Part shown: piece after piece, positions 12,286-62,732 of the stretch | How positions within the stretch are numbered: the stretch's first letter is position 1 | How the letters are laid out: each line of letters begins with the position of its first letter | Assembly (NCBI GenBank): GCA_028714315.1 | Contig: JAQTMN010000003.1 | Span: 1-64,000, forward strand | DNA from: Sulfuricella sp. | GTDB lineage: Bacteria; Pseudomonadota; Gammaproteobacteria; Burkholderiales; Sulfuricellaceae | Length of the DNA: 64,000 nt | Direction: 5' to 3' | Translations under genes and position numbers: made by a program | The notes under the pieces: model-generated | Seen by the model: only the letters and a program-made list of their open reading frames with translations | Told to the model about the DNA's origin: nothing | Database searches by the model: none

Positions 12286-12407
12286 TTAGCGTGAAACTCG
12301 CGAAACAGGATGCGCGGTCTGTGGGTCAGGCTTTAGCCTGACTGTACGGCTGAAGCCGTACCCACAGCAGACGCCGTTTCATGATTCGGGTGGCGATTCG
12401 CCATGAC
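12286..12407. repeat. Composite repeat (family D with an embedded family C hairpin pair)
   Basis: The outer module D reads TTAGCGTGAAACTCGCGAAA on the left and CGCCGTTTCATGATTCGGGT on the right. Inside it, at 12321-12366, is module C with two adjacent hairpins, GTCAGGCTTTAGCCTGAC and GTACGGCTGAAGCCGTAC. Module D occurs again at 34875-34967 without an intact C, and at 39178-39298 with C. No gene was seen here. Confidence 0.8.
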
Positions 12408-13200: not shown

Positions 13201-13301
13201 GGTGTTGGGCAATCCGAATAAATAACTTGCAGTTTAAACAAGCCATTCATTCCGCGACACTGCCCAAATGGGCTACGGCGCCAAACGACGGATAAAGTTG
13301 G

Positions 13302-13694
13302 TCGCGAAAAGGCACAAAAAGCACAAAAAGGTTTCTCCCTTCTCCCGCAGGCGGGATAACCATCGACTTGGCTGGCGTAGTAGTTTGCCAGCCTAGTCGA
13401 ATGGCTAGTAGTTCCATCAGAAGGGCCGGGGATGAGGGTGTTTGCGTCTTTGCAGGCATTAACCAAGCGCAAAGTCCCTCACCCCAACCCCTCTCCCTGC
13501 ACCCGCACGGAGTGGCAGCAAGCTGCACTCCGACTTTCTATCGACTAAAGTCGATGAAAGATCGTATGTCCCCGCCGGGTTCCCGCTGCTGCGCAGCGAC
13601 CACGGCGAGACGGGCGAGGGGCTATCGCGGGGTGTTCGAGTTTGGTCAGGGCAGGCTTTTTTTTTGTGTTTTTTGTGCCTTTTCGCGGCCAAGA
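13302..13694. repeat. Nested repeat: family A arms enclosing family B hairpins
   Basis: Outer arms CGCGAAAAGGCACAAAAAGC (left) and TTTTTGTGCCTTTTCGCGGCC (right) form family A. Between them lies a family B element: TTCTCCCGCAGGCGG, then a 60 bp insert (ATAACCATCGACTTGGCTGG through GTAGTTCCATCAG), then AAGGGCCGGGGATGAGG, then ACCCCAACCCCTCTCC with another hairpin-rich insert. The same nested architecture recurs at 32063-32422. This explains the roughly 500 bp gap between the thioredoxin-like and SCO genes, where no gene is supported. Confidence 0.85.
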
Positions 13695-25689: not shown

Positions 25690-25927
25690 GGAAAAAAAGC
25701 CCCTCCCCCGTCTCGCCGTGGTCGCTGCGCAGCAGCGGGAACCCGGCGGGGACATACGATCTTTCATCGACTTTAGTCGATAGAAAGTCGGAGTGCAGCT
25801 TGCTGCCACTCCTTGCGGGTGCAGGGAGAGGGGCTGGGGTGAGGGACTTTGCGCTTGGGCAACGCTTGCAGTGATGCAAACGCCCTCATCCCCGGCCCTT
25901 CTCCCGCCCACGGGAGAAGGGAGTCGG
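25690..25927. repeat. Family B repeat, long form
   Basis: An inverted copy of the complex B element. It contains AGCCCCTCCCCCGTCTCGCC, an embedded hairpin group with TCGACTTTAGTCGA and GTGCAGCTTGCTGCAC-like arms, GGGAGAGGGGCTGGGGTGAG, and CCCTCATCCCCGGCCCTTCT. The embedded block matches, in reverse complement, the block at about 13503-13615. It fills the gap between the ferritin-like gene and dusC. Confidence 0.82.
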
Positions 25928-31442: not shown

Positions 31443-32057
31443 ATGCTGGAAGGGAAAGACCTCACCTGCGTACGGGGCGAGCGCACGTTGTTCAGCCACC
31501 TGGATTTTGTCTTGCGCGAGGGCGAACTCTTGCTCGTTCAGGGCGCCAATGGCAGCGGCAAGACCAGCCTGCTGCGCATGGCGTGCGGCCTGCTGGCGCC
31601 GGAGTTCGGCGAAATCTCGTGGCGTGGCGAGAAGATCGGCGCGGCGCGCGAAACCTACCATGCCGAGATGATCTATTTCGGCCATGCCCCGGCCGTCAAG
31701 GAGGACCTGAGCGCGTTCGAAAACCTCGATCTGGCCTGCCGGCTCGCCGGCGCGCCAGCCGGGCGGGACGACGTGAAGGGCGCGCTGGGACACCTCGGCC
31801 TGGGCCACTGCCTGGATTTGCCGGCCAAATCGCTGTCGCAGGGGCAGCGCCGCCGCGTCGCGCTGGCCCGCCTGCTGCTCACCCGAGCCCGGCTGTGGAT
31901 ACTCGACGAACCGCTAACGGCGCTCGACCAGGCCGCCCTGCAACTGGTGCAATCCCTGCTCGGCGAGCATTTGTCGAAGGGCGGCATGGTCATGCTCACC
32001 ACCCACCAGCCGGTCGCGATTCCGGGCGTCGAGCCCAAGACGGTGCAATTGTGCTGA
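31443..32057 (+). CDS. ccmA: Cytochrome c biogenesis ATP-binding export protein CcmA
   Basis: A 204-residue ABC ATPase of the system I heme-handling complex CcmABCD. Walker A is GANGSGKTS, the signature KSLSQGQRRRVALARL, Walker B LWILDEPL, and the switch histidine lies in TTHQ. ATP hydrolysis drives release of holo-CcmE from CcmCD. The ATG at 31443 (MLEGKDLTC) is used rather than the TTG at 31431. It opens the complete ccm locus. Confidence 0.93.
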   Translation: MLEGKDLTCVRGERTLFSHLDFVLREGELLLVQGANGSGKTSLLRMACGLLAPEFGEISWRGEKIGAARETYHAEMIYFGHAPAVKEDLSAFENLDLACRLAGAPAGRDDVKGALGHLGLGHCLDLPAKSLSQGQRRRVALARLLLTRARLWILDEPLTALDQAALQLVQSLLGEHLSKGGMVMLTTHQPVAIPGVEPKTVQLC

Positions 32058-32062
32058 AGCAG

Positions 32063-32422
32063 AAATTTAGCCGCGAAAAGGCACAAAATTCGCAAAAAGA
32101 AAACAGCCGCTCTTTTTTTGTAACGGCTCAGGTTGGTTTTCTTCCTTCTCCCGCATACGACTCCACGCGGGCTTCAGTCCGCAGTGGATCGGAGTCCTTT
32201 AGGGCAGGCGGGATAACCATCGACTTGGCTGGCGTAGTTTGCCAGCCTAGTCGAATGGCTAGTAGTTCCATCAGAAGGGCCGGGGATGAGGGTGTTTGCG
32301 TCACTGCAAACGTTGACTCTGTGCAAAGTCCCTCTCCCCAACCCCTCTCCCGCCTGCGGGCGAGGGGCTTTAAGCCGTTGGCTCTTTTTGTGGCTTTTGT
32401 GCCTTTTTGCGGCCAAGAAAAA
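32063..32422. repeat. Nested repeat: family A arms enclosing family B with two inserts
   Basis: Outer arms AGCCGCGAAAAGGCACAAAA and TTTTGTGCCTTTTTGCGGCC. Inside, TTCTCCCGC is split by ATACGACTCCACGCGGGCTT...GTCCTTTAGGGCAG, followed by GGCGGG and the ATAACCATCGACTTGGCTGG...CCATCAG insert, then AAGGGCCGGGGATGAGG and CCCCTCTCCCGCCTGCGGGC. It lies between ccmA and ccmB and pushes them about 390 bp apart. No gene was seen in it. Confidence 0.85.
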
Positions 32423-32448
32423 AGCTCATATTTTTCGGGGCATTGCGA

Positions 32449-33114
32449 TTGAACGCCATTTCCGCCCTGCTGCGGCGCGAATTGACGCTGGCCATGCGGC
32501 GGCGCGGCGACGTGCTGACCGTGCTGTTTTTCTTCGTCATCGTCGCCAGCCTGTTCCCGCTCGGCGTCGGGCCGGAGCCCAAGCTGCTGCGCCTGATGGG
32601 CGGCGGGGTGGTGTGGGTGGCGGCCCTTTTGGCGGCGATGCTTTCGCTCGGCCGGCTGTTCGCGGCAGACTATGCCGACGGCACGCTGGAGCAGCTGATT
32701 CTGACGCCAACGCCGCCGGTGGCATGGATTACCGGTAAAATACTGGCGCATTGGCTGGTGAGCGGGGTGCCTCTGATCCTGATGGCGCCGGTGCTGGGCA
32801 TCCAGTTCGGTTTGTCCGGCGCGGAACTGGCGGTGCTGATGTCGTCGCTGCTGCTCGGCACGCCGGTGCTGTCCCTGATCGGGGCGATTGGCGCCGCCCT
32901 GACGCTGGGCCTGCGCGGCGGCGGGGTGCTGGTGTCGCTGCTGGTGCTGCCGCTTTACATCCCGGTGCTGATCTTCGGCGCCGGCGCGGTGGACGGCGCG
33001 ATCTCCGGTTTGGGCAGCGAAGCGCACCTGTCACTGCTCGGCGGCATCCTGATCCTGGCGTTCATGCTGACGCCGTGGGCGGTGGCGGCGGCGTTGCGGA
33101 TATCCATTGAATGA
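32449..33114 (+). CDS. ccmB: Heme exporter membrane protein CcmB
   Basis: A 221-residue membrane protein with six hydrophobic helices, the permease partner of CcmA. It matches the usual CcmB length of about 220 when started at the TTG at 32449 (NAISALLRRELTLAMRRRGD). Helices include VLFFFVIVASLFPLGVGPEP and the C-terminal LTPWAVAAALRISIE. The track start at 32407 would add repeat-encoded residues. Confidence 0.9.
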   Translation: MNAISALLRRELTLAMRRRGDVLTVLFFFVIVASLFPLGVGPEPKLLRLMGGGVVWVAALLAAMLSLGRLFAADYADGTLEQLILTPTPPVAWITGKILAHWLVSGVPLILMAPVLGIQFGLSGAELAVLMSSLLLGTPVLSLIGAIGAALTLGLRGGGVLVSLLVLPLYIPVLIFGAGAVDGAISGLGSEAHLSLLGGILILAFMLTPWAVAAALRISIE

Positions 33115-33123
33115 GAGGGATTT

Positions 33124-33180
33124 GTAGGAGCGGCCTCCCGGCCGCGATACGCTGTTTCGCGGCCGGGAGGCCGCTCCTAC
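33124..33180. repeat. Hairpin repeat family E between ccmB and ccmC
   Basis: A near-perfect hairpin, GTAGGAGCGGCCTCCCGGCC paired with GGCCGGGAGGCCGCTCCTAC around a short CGATACGCTGTTTCG loop. A second copy is at 46305-46361. It fills the ccmB-ccmC gap. Confidence 0.9.
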
Positions 33181-33190
33181 GCCAATGTGA

Positions 33191-39395: not shown

Positions 39396-39435
39396 ATACG
39401 GCTGCGCCCAAAAGGGCACAAGAGCCGTACCCGCG
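39396..39435. repeat. Family C-derived hairpin with insert
   Basis: ATACGGCTGCGCCCAAAAGG then GCACAAGAGCCGTACCC: a GTACGGCT/AGCCGTAC hairpin whose loop holds a GCGCCC-AAAA-GGGC hairpin. The same insert is seen in reverse complement at about 43550-43575. Confidence 0.65.
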
Positions 39436-43304: not shown

Positions 43305-43478
43305 TTTCTCCCTTCTCCCGCATACGACTCCACATGGGCTTCAGCCCATAGTGGATCGGAGTCCTTTAGGGCAGGCGGGAGAAGGGCCGGGGATGAGGGT
43401 GTTTGCATCCCAGAAGCGTCGCCAAAGCGTGCACAGTCCCTCACCCCTGCCCCTCTCCCGCCTGCGGGAGAGGGGTTT
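43305..43478. repeat. Family B repeat with insert, downstream of actB
   Basis: CTTCTCCCGC is interrupted by ATACGACTCCACATGGGCTT through AGTCCTTTAGGGCAG, then resumes GGCGGGAGAAGGGCCGGGGA; a second half has CCCCTCTCCCGCCTGCGGGA. Part of the 452 bp actB-actC gap, in which only repeats were seen. Confidence 0.85.
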
Positions 43479-43540: not shown

Positions 43541-43660
43541 GTGGGTACGGCTCTTGTGCCCTTTAGGGCGCAGCCGTACATGTCAGGCTGCACCCGCAAG
43601 GAGTGTCCCCGCCGCGAGCGGCAGCAGAGCTGCTCGCACGGGCGAGAAAGCCTGACCCAC
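43541..43660. repeat. Family C repeat with loop insertions
   Basis: Outer ends GTGGGTACGGCT and AAGCCTGACCCAC match module C. Both hairpin loops are enlarged: the first holds CTTGTGCCCTTTAGGGCGC, the second holds GCACCCGCAAGGAGTG and a further GAGCGGCAGCAGAGCTGCTC hairpin. It lies about 70 bp before actC. Confidence 0.85.
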
Positions 43661-45096: not shown

Positions 45097-45623
45097 ACGT
45101 CGTCTACGGCCTGGTCGCCGAGTTTCCCGGTGCGGCGGCCCTGCTCAGGGCAGCGCGGGCCGCCGGCGCCGCCGGATACCGGCGCATCGACGCCTATTCG
45201 CCGATGCCGGTCGAGGGGCTGGCCGACGCCCTCGGCCATCGCCGCGACCGGATTCCCCTGTTCGCCCTGGCGGGCGGCATCGCCGGCAGCGCCGGAACCT
45301 TCGCCATGCAATGGTACAGCGCGGCGATTGCCTATCCGCTCGTCATCGGCGGACGGACGCCGGCCTGGCCCGGACTGATTCCGGCAACGTTTGAAATGAC
45401 CGTGCTCGGCGCGGCGCTGTGCGCATTCTTCGGCATGCTGTTCCTGAACGGGCTGCCCCGGCTCCGCCACCCGATCTTCGATGCGCCGGGCTTCGAGCGC
45501 GCGTCGCGCGACGGCTTCTTCCTGTGCATCGAAGCGCGCGATTCCCGGTTCGACGCGACGCGGACCAGGCAATTCCTGGACGGGCTCCAGCCGCGGGCGG
45601 TCGCGGAGGTGCCGTGTCAATGA
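45093..45623 (+). CDS. actD: Alternative complex III subunit ActD (DUF3341)
   Basis: A 176-residue membrane protein of the DUF3341/ActD family. The soluble N-terminal part (VYGLVAEFPGAAALLRAARA, then YRRIDAYSPMPVEGLADALG) precedes two transmembrane helices (LAGGIAGSAGTFAMQWYSAA and TVLGAALCAFFGMLFLNGLP). It is a structural subunit of alternative complex III. It is translationally coupled to actC and actE (ATGA overlaps). Confidence 0.92.
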   Translation: MNVVYGLVAEFPGAAALLRAARAAGAAGYRRIDAYSPMPVEGLADALGHRRDRIPLFALAGGIAGSAGTFAMQWYSAAIAYPLVIGGRTPAWPGLIPATFEMTVLGAALCAFFGMLFLNGLPRLRHPIFDAPGFERASRDGFFLCIEARDSRFDATRTRQFLDGLQPRAVAEVPCQ

Positions 45624-46252
45624 TGGGATGTCTGTCCGTGGGTGCGAATTCATTCGCACCATCGGCGTGTGTTGTGCGAATGAATTCGCACCTACGGGTG
45701 GTCGTCATCGTCGCGGTGTTGGTGCAGTTGTCCGGCTGCGAAAAGGCCATGCGGAACATGTACGAGCAGCCCAAATACAAGCCGCTGGCCGCCAGTGCTC
45801 TGTGGCCGGACGGCCAATCGGCGCGGCCCCTGGAGCCGGGCGTGGTGGCGCATGGCGCCGGAGTGCCGGCGGCGGCGTCGAGCGGACGCCGGGGAGAGCT
45901 GCCGGCGGCCAGCGTGAAGCCGCCGGTCACGCTCGAAACCCTGCGGCGGGGGCGGGAGCGCTTCGACATCTATTGCGCCCCGTGCCACAGCGTCGCCGGC
46001 GACGGCGACGGCATGGTCGTGCGGCGCGGCTTTCCGCGCCCGCGCTCGCTGCACGCCGAACCGCTGCGCCGTGCGCCGGACGCGCAATTGTTCGATGCGA
46101 TCACCGCCGGCTACGGCGCGATGTACCCATTCGCCGACCGCATCGCGGTGCCGGACCGCTGGGCCATCGTCGCCTACCTGCGCGCCCTGCAGCTGAGCCA
46201 GCATGCGCGCCTCGGCGACGTGCCGGCGGCGGAGCGGAACGAGTTGAAATAG
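45620..46252 (+). CDS. actE: Alternative complex III subunit ActE, monoheme lipoprotein cytochrome c, with repeat-encoded leader
   Basis: A 210-residue cytochrome. The single heme site is FDIYCAPCHSVAGDGDGMVV and the axial Met is likely in YGAMYPFADRI. A lipobox (VLVQLSGC) suggests lipid anchoring. It passes electrons from ActB/ActA towards the oxidase. The first 25 codons translate two opposed copies of repeat F. Starting at 45620 fits the GGAGG site upstream and the actD overlap. The ATG inside the second palindrome (45680) would give a standard signal peptide, MNSHLRVVVIVAVLVQLSGC, without any visible Shine-Dalgarno sequence. Confidence 0.9.
   Translation: MMGCLSVGANSFAPSACVVRMNSHLRVVVIVAVLVQLSGCEKAMRNMYEQPKYKPLAASALWPDGQSARPLEPGVVAHGAGVPAAASSGRRGELPAASVKPPVTLETLRRGRERFDIYCAPCHSVAGDGDGMVVRRGFPRPRSLHAEPLRRAPDAQLFDAITAGYGAMYPFADRIAVPDRWAIVAYLRALQLSQHARLGDVPAAERNELK
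45642..45695. repeat. Two opposed family F palindromes in the actE 5' end
   Basis: The first copy reads ggtgcgaattcattcgcac (reverse sense) and the second gtgcgaatgaattcgcac plus ctac. They are 13 bp apart, so they can pair as one larger hairpin. Both lie in frame in actE. Confidence 0.9.
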
Positions 46253-46255
46253 TGC

Positions 46256-46280
46256 TGAGCCGCAAAGGCGCGAAGGGATT
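46256..46280. repeat. Half of a family A repeat after actE
   Basis: GAGCCGCAAAGGCGCGAAGG matches the left arm of family A (compare 40223 and 34245); no right arm follows. Confidence 0.6.
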
Positions 46281-46304
46281 AGCCACAATGTTGAGCAGAA
46301 CGAT

Positions 46305-46361
46305 GTAGGAGCGGCCTCCTGGCCGCGATAGTCCGCCTCGCGGCCGGGAGGCCGCTCCTAC
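46305..46361. repeat. Hairpin repeat family E between actE and actF
   Basis: GTAGGAGCGGCCTCCTGGCC pairs with GGCCGGGAGGCCGCTCCTAC, the same unit as 33124-33180. It lies in the 128 bp gap before actF. Confidence 0.9.
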
Positions 46362-46380
46362 GACAATCGGGGTTTACAGG

Positions 46381-47478
46381 ATGAATTCGCTGCCGATATC
46401 CGCTGCAAATCGCGCGTCCGCGGCCGCCTGGCTGGTCGGCGCGGCCGGCGCCGCGGCGCTGTTTTTTCACGCGGATTACGGCGGGCAGGCGTTCGCGCCG
46501 TCGTGGCTTTTCGCGTGGCTGTTTTTTCTCGGCCTGTCGCTGGGCGGCATGGCGCTCGTCCTGATCCACAACCTGACCGGGGGCGCCTGGGCGGAGCCGG
46601 TCCGGCCGCTGTTCGAAGGGGCGTTGCGCCTCTTTCCGTTGTCCGCCCTGCTGGCCGTTCCGCTGCTGTTCCGGCTGCCGGAGCTTTATCCGTGGATGCG
46701 GCCGGCCGATCCCGAGCTCCTGGAACTGGTCAGGCACAAGGCCTGGTACCTGAACGACGCCTTTTTCGGGATGCGCGCCGCCATCTATTTTTCGATCTGG
46801 ATCGCGCTTGCCCGGCTGCTGCGCGCCCCCCCGGCAGGCGCGGCATCGGTGCGCGCCGTGTCTTCGGCCGGTTTCATCCTCTACGCGCTGACGACGACGT
46901 TCGCCGCCATCGACTGGATCATGTCGATCACGCCGCAATGGCGTTCGACCGGATTCGGCCTGCTCGTCGGCGCGGGCCAGACCCTGGCGGCGTTGGCCGG
47001 CGCCGTCGCCGGCGCGGCGTGGTCCGGGCGCGGCGGGCGGGATGCGCTGCACGATCTCGGCAACCTGCTGCTGGTGCTGGTCATGGTCTGGGCCTATCTC
47101 GCCTTCATGCAATTCCTGATCATCTGGATGGAGGACTTGCCGGACGAAATCGCCTGGTACGCGCCGCGCCTGCAAACCAGCTGGCGCGGCCTGGCGTTGT
47201 TCCTGGTGCTCGCCAACCTGGTGCTGCCGTTCCTCGCCTTGCTGTCGCGCGGCGTGAAGCGGTCGCCGCGCGCCCTGGCGGCGGTGGCCGGCGTCCTGCT
47301 GTTCGCCTGCCTGGCCGATACGTTCTGGCTGGTGATGCCTTCCCTGAGGCCGGACGGATTCTCGCTCGAATGGAACGACCTGTTCGCGCTGCTCGCGGTT
47401 GGCGGCATCTGGCTGGGCGGGCTGCTGCGCGGCCAGATGCGCGCCCCGATTCCGGCCGAGGTGGCGGATCATGGCTGA
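46381..47478 (+). CDS. actF: Alternative complex III subunit ActF
   Basis: A 365-residue membrane protein with about ten helices, related to ActC but lacking the full NrfD signature. It begins LPISAANRASAAAWLVGAAG and contains LFFLGLSLGGMALVLIHNLT and MVWAYLAFMQFLIIWMEDLP. ActF is the second large membrane subunit of alternative complex III. The ATG at 46381 follows the family E hairpin. It overlaps the next gene by 8 nt. Confidence 0.9.
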   Translation: MNSLPISAANRASAAAWLVGAAGAAALFFHADYGGQAFAPSWLFAWLFFLGLSLGGMALVLIHNLTGGAWAEPVRPLFEGALRLFPLSALLAVPLLFRLPELYPWMRPADPELLELVRHKAWYLNDAFFGMRAAIYFSIWIALARLLRAPPAGAASVRAVSSAGFILYALTTTFAAIDWIMSITPQWRSTGFGLLVGAGQTLAALAGAVAGAAWSGRGGRDALHDLGNLLLVLVMVWAYLAFMQFLIIWMEDLPDEIAWYAPRLQTSWRGLALFLVLANLVLPFLALLSRGVKRSPRALAAVAGVLLFACLADTFWLVMPSLRPDGFSLEWNDLFALLAVGGIWLGGLLRGQMRAPIPAEVADHG

Positions 47479-47845
47479 AATATCGCCTCCGGAAACGCGG
47501 CCCGGCCACGAGCCTTCCCGCGTCGATGCCCGCCGCATTGCCTGGTTCTCCGCCGGATTGGCGGCGCTGATCGCCGCCTCCGCGCTGGCCGCGTTCGCGC
47601 TGCTGGGCGGGTTTCGGCCGCCACGGCCGCCGATTGGCCAGCTGCCGCCGCCGGCCGGCGCGCCGATGCTGCAAAGCGCGCCGGCGGGCGACCTGCAAGC
47701 CTATCGCCAAAGCAAGGAGAGCCTACTCCACGGCTATCGCTGGATCGACCGCAAGGCGGGCCTGGTGCAGATTCCGATCGAGCGGGCGATGCAGCTGACC
47801 GCCGAACGCAATGCGGCCCGCGCCGCAAGCGAGGCGCCGCGATGA
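47471..47845 (+). CDS. Small single-span membrane protein of the act-cox cluster
   Basis: A 124-residue protein with one transmembrane helix (FSAGLAALIAASALAAFALL), a Pro-rich periplasmic linker (FRPPRPPIGQLPPPAGAP) and a conserved-looking segment YRQSKESLLHGYRWIDRKAG ending in IPIERAMQLTAE. Proteins with this IPIERAM ending are frequent between alternative complex III or oxidase genes and SCO1; their job in assembly is not defined. It overlaps actF and the SCO1 gene by a few bases. Confidence 0.8.
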   Translation: MAEISPPETRPGHEPSRVDARRIAWFSAGLAALIAASALAAFALLGGFRPPRPPIGQLPPPAGAPMLQSAPAGDLQAYRQSKESLLHGYRWIDRKAGLVQIPIERAMQLTAERNAARAASEAPR

Positions 47846-48615
47846 GTGCGCCGTCGGCGTCGGCTCTGTTGCTGTGCCTGATGGCCGCGGCCGGGAGCGC
47901 CATGGCGGCGCCTGACAGGATCGACGAGCTTGCACGCCGCGCGGGCTTCGAGCAGCACCTGAACCGAGCCATTCCCGCCGAACTGCGGTTTCGCGACGAG
48001 GCGGGACGGAGCGTGCGCCTGGCGGATTACCTTGGCGCCGCGCCGGCAGTGCTGGTGTTTTCCTATTACGGTTGCGCGAATTTGTGCCCGACCGTCATCG
48101 GCAACCTGGCCGGTCGGCTCGGAGCGATCACGCTGCCGGCCGCCGAGAATCCGCAAGTCGTCGTGGTCAGCATCGACCCGGCCGATTCCCCCGCGCTGGC
48201 CGCCCGGATGAAAGCGCGTTTCATCGGCCGGCCCGGCGCCGCGCGCCTGCACCTGCTGACCGGCGACGCCGCCAGCATCGCGCGGCTCGCCGACGCGGCG
48301 GGATTCCGCTATGCCTACGACACCGCCACCCATCAATATGCGCACCCGGCCGGCATCGTCCTGCTGACGCCGCAGGGCAGGATCGCGCGCTACCTGTTCG
48401 GCTTCGACTTCACGCCGGGTCAGCTGGCGCGGGCGCTGCACGAGGCCGCCGCGCAGCGCATCGCGTCGCCCGCCGAGCGCCTGCTGCTGCTCTGCTTCCA
48501 CTACGACCCGGCGACCGGGCGCTATTCGGCGACGGTGCTGTCGGTGCTGCAAGGTCTGGCGCTGGCTTTGCTGGCGGGGTTGATCGCCATGGTGGCCGTC
48601 AGGCGAGGTCCCTGA
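47842..48615 (+). CDS. SCO1/SenC copper chaperone for the oxidase
   Basis: A 257-residue protein with a signal segment (LLLCLMAAAGSAMAAPD), a SCO domain and a C-terminal transmembrane helix (GLALALLAGLIAMVAVRRG). The copper site is YGCANLCPTVIG (C-x3-C), and the distal His is in THQYAHPAGIVLLTPQG. It should insert copper into the CuA centre of CoxB, encoded next. This is the second SCO protein in the window (the other at 13703). Confidence 0.9.
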   Translation: MSAPSASALLLCLMAAAGSAMAAPDRIDELARRAGFEQHLNRAIPAELRFRDEAGRSVRLADYLGAAPAVLVFSYYGCANLCPTVIGNLAGRLGAITLPAAENPQVVVVSIDPADSPALAARMKARFIGRPGAARLHLLTGDAASIARLADAAGFRYAYDTATHQYAHPAGIVLLTPQGRIARYLFGFDFTPGQLARALHEAAAQRIASPAERLLLLCFHYDPATGRYSATVLSVLQGLALALLAGLIAMVAVRRGP

Positions 48616-48617
48616 CC

Positions 48618-49580
48618 ATGGAACACCTGCCGTTCTTTCCCGAGCGCGCCTCGTCGATCGCGGCCGAGGTGGACGATCTCTATTTTTCCTGGCTGGGGCT
48701 GTCGGGGCTGGTGCTGGCCGCAGTCGCGGTGGTGATCGTGGTGTTCGCGGTCAAGTACCGCGCCGGCTCGCAGGCTGATCGCGGCATCCCCGACCGCGCG
48801 GCGCACGAGCGCGCGACGCACTGGATCGAGATCGCCTGGATGGCGATTCCGCTGGCGATTTTTCTCGCCATGTACGTCTGGGCCGCGGCGGTGTACCTCA
48901 AGCATGCGACCGTGCCGGCGGATGCGCTGCCGATCTACGTGGTCGGCAAGCAATGGATGTGGCACGTGCGGCATCCGGGCGGGCGGCGCGAGATCGACGA
49001 ACTGCATGTCCCGGTCGGCCGGCCGGTGGAGCTGGTGATGACCTCGCAGGACGTGATCCACAGCTTTTCCCTGCCCGCCTTCCGGGTCAAGCAGGATGTC
49101 CTGCCGGGGCGCTACACCACGCTCTGGTTCGAAGCGACGCGGGCCGGCGAGTATCGCCTGTTTTGCACGCAATACTGCGGTACCGCCCATTCGCGCATGA
49201 TCGGCCGCGTCGTTGCGATGGAACCCGCTGCGTTCGCTCGCTGGCTGAGCGGCGGCAACCAGGCCGGCACCATGGCGGCGCGGGGCGCGGCGCGTTTCCG
49301 GCAGCTCGGCTGCGGCGGCTGCCACGGCCCGAACGCCGCGGTCCACGCGCCCCGGCTCGAAGGTCTGTTCGGCAAGCCCGTTCCGCTGCGGGGCGGCGGA
49401 ACCGTGATTGCCGACGAAGGCTACATCCGCGACGCGATATTGCTGCCGGGCAAGGATGTCCGCGCCGGCTACGAGCCGACCATGCCGACTTTCCGCGGCC
49501 AGATCGGCGAAGAGGATTTGCTCGATATCGTCGAGTACCTCAAGTCGATCGGCAGCAACGCGCCGGAGGAAATGCGATGA
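48618..49580 (+). CDS. coxB: Cytochrome c oxidase subunit II with fused cytochrome c domain
   Basis: A 320-residue caa3-type subunit II. Two N-terminal helices anchor it ([20 protein letters not shown] and [20 protein letters not shown]). The CuA domain has [19 protein letters not shown] and [12 protein letters not shown] with both Cys, His and Met ligands. A C-terminal cytochrome c domain carries CGGCH and the likely Met ligand in [11 protein letters not shown]. It receives electrons from ActE or ActA and passes them to subunit I. The ATG is at 48618; it overlaps coxA by 4 nt. Confidence 0.95.
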
Positions 49581-62491: not shown

Positions 62492-62732
62492 CCTTTCGCG
62501 TTCGCTCCCTCGCCCGCTTGCGGGAGAGGGTTGGGGAGAGGGCAAAACAAGCGCCCTTTCACGTTCGCTCCCTCGCCCGCTTGCGGGATAACCAGCGACT
62601 TGGCGGCTGTGCCGCCTAGTCGAATGGCTAGTAGTTGCATCAGAGGGTGGGGAGAGGGCAACGCCTGCAGCGATGCAAGCACCCTCATCCCCGGCCCTTC
62701 TCCCGCCTGCGGGAGAAGGGAGAAAACCAGCC
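62492..62732. repeat. Family B repeats between secD and secF
   Basis: Two direct copies of GCGCCCTTTC.CGTTCGCTCC with CTCGCCCGCTTGCGGGA. In the second, the stem is interrupted by ATAACCAGCGACTTGGCGGC through TAGTAGTTGCATCAG before GAGGGTGGGGAGAGGG. A third part has CCCTCATCCCCGGCCCTTCT with CCCGCCTGCGGGAGAAGGG. The 278 bp secD-secF gap holds no gene. Confidence 0.88.

Follow-up and report, generated by a model that had tools for sequence, protein, structure and literature searches.

Two families of miniature, very probably mobile hairpins nested in BoxC-type repeats of a Sulfuricella genome

How do small hairpins come to lie inside the loops and stems of other hairpins? The question is raised by a 64,000-nt stretch of DNA (hereafter the window; C3:1-64000) from a Sulfuricella MAG of 2.92 Mb in 148 contigs, 85% complete (G000). 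An earlier note on this DNA described repeats nested in one another and suggested a small mobile palindrome system that targets hairpin loops. The transposition of REPs has been inferred but not observed, and the multiplication of very small bacterial palindromes is a standing question. The window holds a host hairpin (family B), two unrelated kinds of small non-coding insert, an outer inverted repeat (family A), and REPs with an extra hairpin in the loop (family C), as listed here; a caret marks the point of insertion.

13298-13329, no strand: left arm of family A, the outer inverted repeat (repeat search; 32 nt, 94% complementary to 13661-13692)
13337-13356, + strand: 5´ part of host B, BoxC-like, CCCTTCTCCCGCAGGCGGGA (matches the BoxC/TM_ECO consensus; PMC4666352)
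13357-13419, + strand: insert 1, 63-nt variant, hairpin and 3´ tail GTAGTTCCATCA, at GGGA^GAAGGG (covariance model R1, 79.7 bits, E 1e-20)
13420-13438, + strand: 3´ part of host B, GAAGGGCCGGGGATGAGGG (direct reading)
13661-13692, no strand: right arm of family A, pairing with 13298-13329
25898-25923, - strand: empty host B, paralogous empty site for the insertion at 13357 (repeat match of 205 nt, 95%)
32063-32102, no strand: left arm of family A in the ccmA-ccmB stack (direct reading and repeat search)
32144-32154, + strand: 5´ arm of a second copy of host B, CCTTCTCCCGC (direct reading)
32155-32205, + strand: insert 2, 51 nt, at CCCGC^AGGCGGG, the host loop (sequence search)
32214-32273, + strand: insert 1, 60 nt, in the 3´ arm of the host that holds insert 2 at 32155 (R1, 88.6 bits, E 3e-23)
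32382-32418, no strand: right arm of family A in the ccmA-ccmB stack (direct reading and repeat search)
39406-39422, - strand: the loop hairpin again, its second copy in the window, within a REP of family C (sequence search)
43322-43372, + strand: insert 2 in the loop of another B host (sequence search)
43553-43571, + strand: loop of a family C REP (GTACGGCT..AGCCGTAC) occupied by the small hairpin CTTGTGCCCTTTAGGGCGC, which is common to at least three REP arm types
62589-62642, + strand: insert 1, 54-nt short-stem variant, in a BoxC host (R1, 66.2 bits, E 7e-17)
62697-62722, - strand: empty host B near the filled BoxC at 62589 (host comparison)

Host repeats and their empty and filled copies

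Family B consists of a CCCTCTCCC-loop-GGGAGAGGG hairpin (or its CCCTTCTCCC/GGGAGAAGGG variant) followed by a second G-rich strand (GGGGTGAGGG), and often comprises a pair of these units in inverted arrangement with about 50 bp between them. Judged by sequence, it matches the known BoxC/PIT/TM_ECO repeat of E. coli, CCCTCNCCC-loop-GGGNGAGGG-N3/4-GGGNGAGGG, published as an intrastrand-triplex repeat consensus (PMC4666352). The BoxC arrangement CCCTCNCCC N3-6 GGGNGAGGG N3 GGGNGAGGG is found in host B, and 31 of the 36 perfect stems in 1.04 Mb of G000 carry the third G-rich strand (spacer of 2-4 and loop of 2-12 allowed). The arms of family A surround B at 13298-13329/13661-13692 and again at about 32063-32418, as the earlier note had described; in an unbiased 1.04-Mb sample, however, few A-type pairs enclose B in this way (3 of about 24).

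Insert 1, first noted at about 13370, 32212 and 62590, insert 2, at about 32150 and 43320, and the two in series (32155-32273) are all confirmed with the borders listed above. Within G000, identical host flanks recur across B copies that are empty (window about 25898 and about 62697; L299:9827, L311:8327 and others), filled by insert 1 alone (window 13337; L311:2019), filled by insert 2 alone (window 43311; L312:12352) or filled by both (window 32144). The joints of the doubly filled host read exactly TTCTCCCGC-insert 2-AGGCGGGA-insert 1-GAAGGGCCGGGGATGAGGG, and insert 2 shares its host with insert 1 at 5 of 22 tested G000 insert-1 sites. Clean filled and empty sites were thus looked for and found, with fixed insertion positions and no target duplication at the 139 insert-1 and 30 insert-2 junctions, apart from a single ambiguous base (A) in the case of insert 1. 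At the same sites, neither insert has terminal inverted repeats. The inserts are not fixed parts of B, because B is empty at two places in the window and because insert 1 occurs outside B in other genomes. Entry near turns, also proposed earlier, describes insert 2, which sits exactly in the loop, but not insert 1, which interrupts the G-rich 3´ arm, either at GGGA^GAGGG or at GGGA^GAAGGG.

One nested stack (window 32057-32450) splits ccmA from ccmB. The A-B-insert-1-insert-2 stack between the two genes measures 355 bp in G000; it is replaced by about 31 bp of unrelated sequence in a sister species (G007; flanks 87-90% identical), and in most other species ccmA and ccmB are directly adjacent or overlap. 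Its presence there may alter how the cytochrome c maturation operon is expressed.

The extra hairpins reported in family C loops were found as well: CTTGTGCCCTTTAGGGC is present at 43553 and 39406, and a sample of about 1.2 Mb of G000 holds it at about 18 further places. In this sample, about 20 C-type or similar REPs hold it in the loop between arms of at least three different sequences, and it represents either insertions or loop variants spread via REP copying. Family C itself lies at 12343, 39237 and 43541-43660 of the window. A 149-aa RAYT elsewhere in the genome (L031, G000:C6:45024-48272) is flanked by GTGGGTCAGGCTTCAGCCTGACATGTACGGCTGAAGCCGTACCCAC, family C being its cognate REP pair.

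Structure, targets and distribution of the inserts

Insert 1 (54-63 nt; left end TAACCAGCGACTTGG) is a single 48-nt imperfect hairpin followed by a 12-nt tail that forms its right end and is unpaired or weakly paired. It is ordered TAACCA-G-CGACT-T-stem, the outer TAACCA pairing with TGGCTA. Among 90 distinct 60-nt copies, stem 8-20/28-40 varies with compensation and a T.T mismatch at 13/35 is conserved in 82; in a 30-sequence alignment 10 pairs are changed on both sides, a number equalled in none of 500 shuffles. The assignment of one 48-nt hairpin plus tail follows from outer-stem compensation in subfamilies from other families, where TAACCA/TGGCTA becomes TAAGCA/TGCTTA and CAAGCA/TGCTTG. 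A small right-end hairpin (ATGG..CCAT), the earlier model on which covariance model R1 was built, gave way to the long hairpin after these families were compared. GTAG sits at the 3´ foot of the hairpin. Insert 2 (51 nt) is one bulged hairpin with a 14-nt tail, GAGTCCTTTAGGGC, likewise unpaired or weakly paired, and has five pairs changed on both sides. Covariation in both families bears out the view that the inserts are themselves hairpins.

The "long" copies of insert 1 at L159 and L102, considered as gene carriers, turned out to be interrupted by MITEs with terminal inverted repeats. These MITEs lie at CTAG inside insert 1 (L159/L165 in G005:C20 and L102/L222 in G007:C15; GAGCCTGTC..GACAGGCTC and TAGTCAGTCA..TGACTGACTA) with apparent duplication of CTAG, an ordinary transposon type that adds another layer of nesting. 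No transposase adjoins a lone insert-1 left end at L213 (G007:C10).

The 139 distinct insert-1 sites have A at -1 in 130 and G at +1 in 131 (A^G in 123), with mainly G or C at -2. About 84 of the hosts are BoxC-like GGGA^GAGGG, 13 are CGTC REPs (e.g. GGCGCA^GGCCGG), five are TTCGACAGGCTCA repeats, a few are of other kinds, and 32 are unclassified and mostly lack a hairpin. Outside BoxC, insert 1 has entered the CGTC REP, the TTCGACAGGCTCA and CCCCCTTT repeats, an ACAGAGG tandem and unique sequence; about a quarter of the sites are in non-hairpin, non-repeat DNA that keeps the A^G core alone. In G000, all 22 sites tested are in BoxC-type sequence. The motif GGGAGAGG (GGGA^GAGG) is rare among A^G sites, with 120 in about 102,000 per Mb. 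The joined flanks fold into a site-spanning hairpin of six or more pairs at 81 of the 139 sites, compared to 10% of random A^G sites. From site composition and host classes, the minimal requirement of insert 1 is A^G (C^T on the other strand), and BoxC and other palindromes are strongly preferred. The proposed targeting of hairpin loops therefore holds as a strong preference for hairpin repeats but not as an absolute need. Within the GGGA^GAGG motif, preferences for sequence and for structure are inseparable, because the additional hairpin excess in G000 alone is not significant (p = 0.10).

Insert 2 has a left flank ending in GC (30 sites; C at -1 in all 30, G at -2 in 29), with +1 free, and the CCCGC^..GCGGG loop is its host position at 21 of these sites. 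Several sites are head-to-tail tandems, the added copy following ...AGGGC. For both families, insertion is precise and free of duplication, at fixed short cores, and the structure is kept by compensation; intergenic hairpin repeats are preferred, above all those of the BoxC triplex type, and the inserts enter each other or themselves. The nesting described in the earlier note is thereby upheld and extends to insert 1 inside insert 1, at the hairpin foot (GGCTA^GTAG; two loci in G044). A diverged relative occupies a GTAG REP loop adjoining a RAYT gene in G007. The loop hairpin CTTGTGCCCTTAAGGG.. is found also in the loop of an insert-2 copy and in that of another GTAG REP (L358 in G198, L251 in G071), a distribution which suggests that loop cassettes move between unrelated palindromes.

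The copy numbers of both inserts in the 2.9-Mb genome, 24 for insert 1 and 26-27 for insert 2, are far above chance, and among sister genomes the number ranges from 0 to 27. A 25-base exact pattern retrieved 95 insert-1 loci from the GTDB collection, all in Gallionella-type or related proteobacterial MAGs, so that iron-oxidising members of the Gallionella group are among the hosts; the named carriers are Gallionella, Sideroxydans, Ferrigenium, Sulfuricella and Thiobacillus, together with Nitrosomonadales MAGs. The genome search found insert-1 carriers at the genus, family and order levels of G000. With a covariance model, insert 1 was detected in 26 of 300 genomes of the order, from 13 genera, and in just 2 of 398 genomes of a phylum-wide draw, both from the same order. 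Of 200 genomes of the order, 9 carry insert 2, with about 20 or more copies each in G007, G005 and G198.

Possible mechanisms of movement

Inserts 1 and 2 are very probably two families of miniature, non-autonomous mobile hairpins. The best explanation, to which we give a probability of roughly 0.6, is that a single-strand mechanism of the Y1 HUH type, with an enzyme that binds hairpins, moves them in trans, by analogy with IS200/IS605 and TnpA-REP. Among engines of this kind, the Y1 HUH enzyme is the best known. The folded insert strand would be cut at a short core (A^G / C^T for insert 1, 3´ of GC for insert 2) and pasted into single strands exposed by hairpin extrusion, e.g. at replication forks. 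TnpA-REP cuts C|T beside the folded REP with GTAG as a guide, and one group-3 enzyme cuts CT and CA (PMC8266576); on the bottom strand, the insert-1 core is C^T, the same dinucleotide (PMC8266576). Insertion 3´ of a short motif, as in insert 2, bears a resemblance to IS200/IS605 logic. Simple IS200/IS605 target logic would not predict the strong G at +1 of insert 1, and this counts against the proposed mechanism.

The suggestion of a RAYT or other Y1 transposase elsewhere in the genome was half right: G000 has seven Y1 genes, RAYTs among them, but the RAYTs at inspected loci are flanked by their own GTAG REPs, and for this reason no transposase can be assigned to the inserts. A small mobile palindrome system, as originally proposed, is supported by the clean sites and fixed positions, but no Y1 gene is linked to either insert. 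None of about 70 Y1 loci in 23 genomes is flanked REPtron-style by insert 1 or 2, and insert 1 was rejected as the cognate REP of a RAYT at the loci inspected. The copies of insert 1 at L247, L252 and L253 are no more than about 1.2 kb away from RAYTs of the 178-aa type, without being arranged as their flanking repeat; from the flanks, we ascribe this post hoc observation to closeness within intergenic DNA that is rich in repeats. No single Y1 subfamily occurs in every insert-1 carrier genome, the complete genome G044 having a single Y1 of a type absent from G000, and a recently amplified insert-1 subfamily (G161, G121, G231) shares no linked Y1. A non-exhaustive search of the 95 GTDB right-end loci and the inspected Y1 loci showed no autonomous parent combining insert-1 ends with a Y1 gene.

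The genome has further RAYT and Y1 loci with repeats of their own. A 154-aa RAYT with GTAGGAGCGGCCTCCCGGCCGCG REPINs on either side (L027, G000:C58:1-2337) is a textbook REPtron, and the window repeats at 33123-33186 and 46304-46367 belong to the same family. Two identical 283-aa Y1 proteins 4.4 kb apart (L028 and L029, G000:C4:41049-44372 and 45405-48728) are each bracketed by ATGTGACCCC / GGGGTCACAT repeats, and downstream of L029 these units form a long array; the two are probably a recently duplicated IS200-like unit.

It is possible, if rather unlikely, that the inserts are mobile but are moved in trans by an enzyme other than Y1, such as Y2 HUH/IS91, IS110, a recombinase or a nuclease-ligase. 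The lack of Y1 linkage at the inspected loci is consistent with this, and rolling-circle elements also give head-to-tail tandems like those of insert 2. However, 8 of 10 carrier genomes tested (G000, G005, G044, G121, G161, G198, G250 and G185) have no Y2 transposase gene (Y2_Tnp, PF04986), IS110-type movement predicts an identical core dinucleotide at either end, where the ends here are A^T and A^G, and DDE types should produce a duplication and inverted ends, neither of which is seen. We also entertain, tentatively, the idea that enzyme-less mobile hairpins with a 3´ tail in Burkholderiales/Nitrosomonadales target extruded hairpins or triplexes through a non-RAYT enzyme and form an undescribed class.

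There is little likelihood that the small inserts have never transposed, composites having formed once and spread as units via movement or conversion of BoxC, REP or A. Some copies do share long host sequence (e.g. L011, L012 and L013, in the same host context), and ccmA-ccmB seems to have received the entire A-B stack in one piece. This reading is nevertheless largely refuted by the unrelated hosts, since the exact-ended insert occurs in many contexts, including another insert 1, and its diverged relative within a GTAG REP loop. Least probable of all is that the inserts are mainly functional RNA elements, i.e. regulatory hairpins dispersed by selection: the covarying stems and highly conserved tail would fit, but a hairpin-binding DNA transposase would keep the same stem, the inserts lie within palindromes and even coding-like sequence, copy number runs from 0 to 27 across sister genomes, and an Rfam search gave nothing relevant, with no family for the inserts.

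Relation to known systems

Two known groups come close to the inserts. Like REPs and REPINs mobilized by RAYT (TnpA-REP), they are small imperfect intergenic palindromes of high copy number with a conserved mismatch, in a genome with Y1 genes. They differ in that they are not in REPIN arrangement, have no adjoining cognate RAYT flanked by their copies (about 70 Y1 loci, 23 genomes) and are clearly inserted into other repeats. REPs have GTAG 0-2 nt 5´ of the hairpin (PMC6006769); neither GTAG nor GTGG has this position in the inserts, GTAG being 3´ in insert 1 and nothing of the kind occurring at the 5´ foot of insert 2. The opposite placement in insert 1 is the wrong one for a REP and counts against the Y1-type explanation. 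The terminal CGTC and 8-9 bp stem of CGTC-type REPs are also lacking from the inserts, for which these REPs serve as hosts.

Palindrome-associated elements are miniature elements derived from IS200/IS605. The inserts share with such miniatures the lack of terminal inverted repeats and of duplication, the hairpin ends, tandem insertion and a fixed left-flank motif (GC^ at 29 of 30 sites for insert 2, A^ at 130 of 139 for insert 1, with its fixed +1 G); insertion 3´ of a short motif is clear for insert 2. They differ in being merely 51-60 nt long, in the +1 G that insert 1 also demands, and in that an autonomous Y1 tnpA parent with the same ends was not found (95 GTDB loci and inspected Y1 loci; non-exhaustive). 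The small dispersed repeats (SDR) of cyanobacteria, reportedly described by Elhai in 2008 as "very small mobile repeated elements", are likewise very small mobile repeats of bacteria, going by title and citations, in an unrelated lineage. No mobiliser is known for BoxC repeats.

If a non-RAYT enzyme and targeting of extruded hairpins prove true, hairpin repeats would be a nested, self-feeding ecosystem of mobile DNA. The inserts provide an unusually clean natural record, with the same host empty, filled by either and filled by both, exact junctions, a target core and covarying structure. Because the inserts land preferentially in hairpin- or triplex-forming DNA, how DNA secondary structure bears on integration can be tested directly.

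Earlier work has described insertions of REP dimers into palindromes (Di Nocera 2013; PMC3733652) and IS elements with REPs as their targets (Tobes and Pareja 2006; PMC1525189), and the inserts have in common with them the placement of palindromes in palindromes and the use of hairpin repeats as transposition hot spots. In those systems REPs or whole IS elements are inserted, whereas here two non-REP miniature families form series of empty and filled sites and are nested in hairpin repeats to a depth of up to three or four. BoxC/PIT/TM_ECO repeats are the targets of the inserts and not themselves the mobile inserts, and the consulted part of PMC4666352 contains no such insertions into BoxC. 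The literature searched holds no description of either insert family, of their BoxC targeting or of an empty, single and double series. In conclusion, palindromes within palindromes and very small mobile repeats are already known, and the two insert families and their targeting of BoxC are new to the literature searched.
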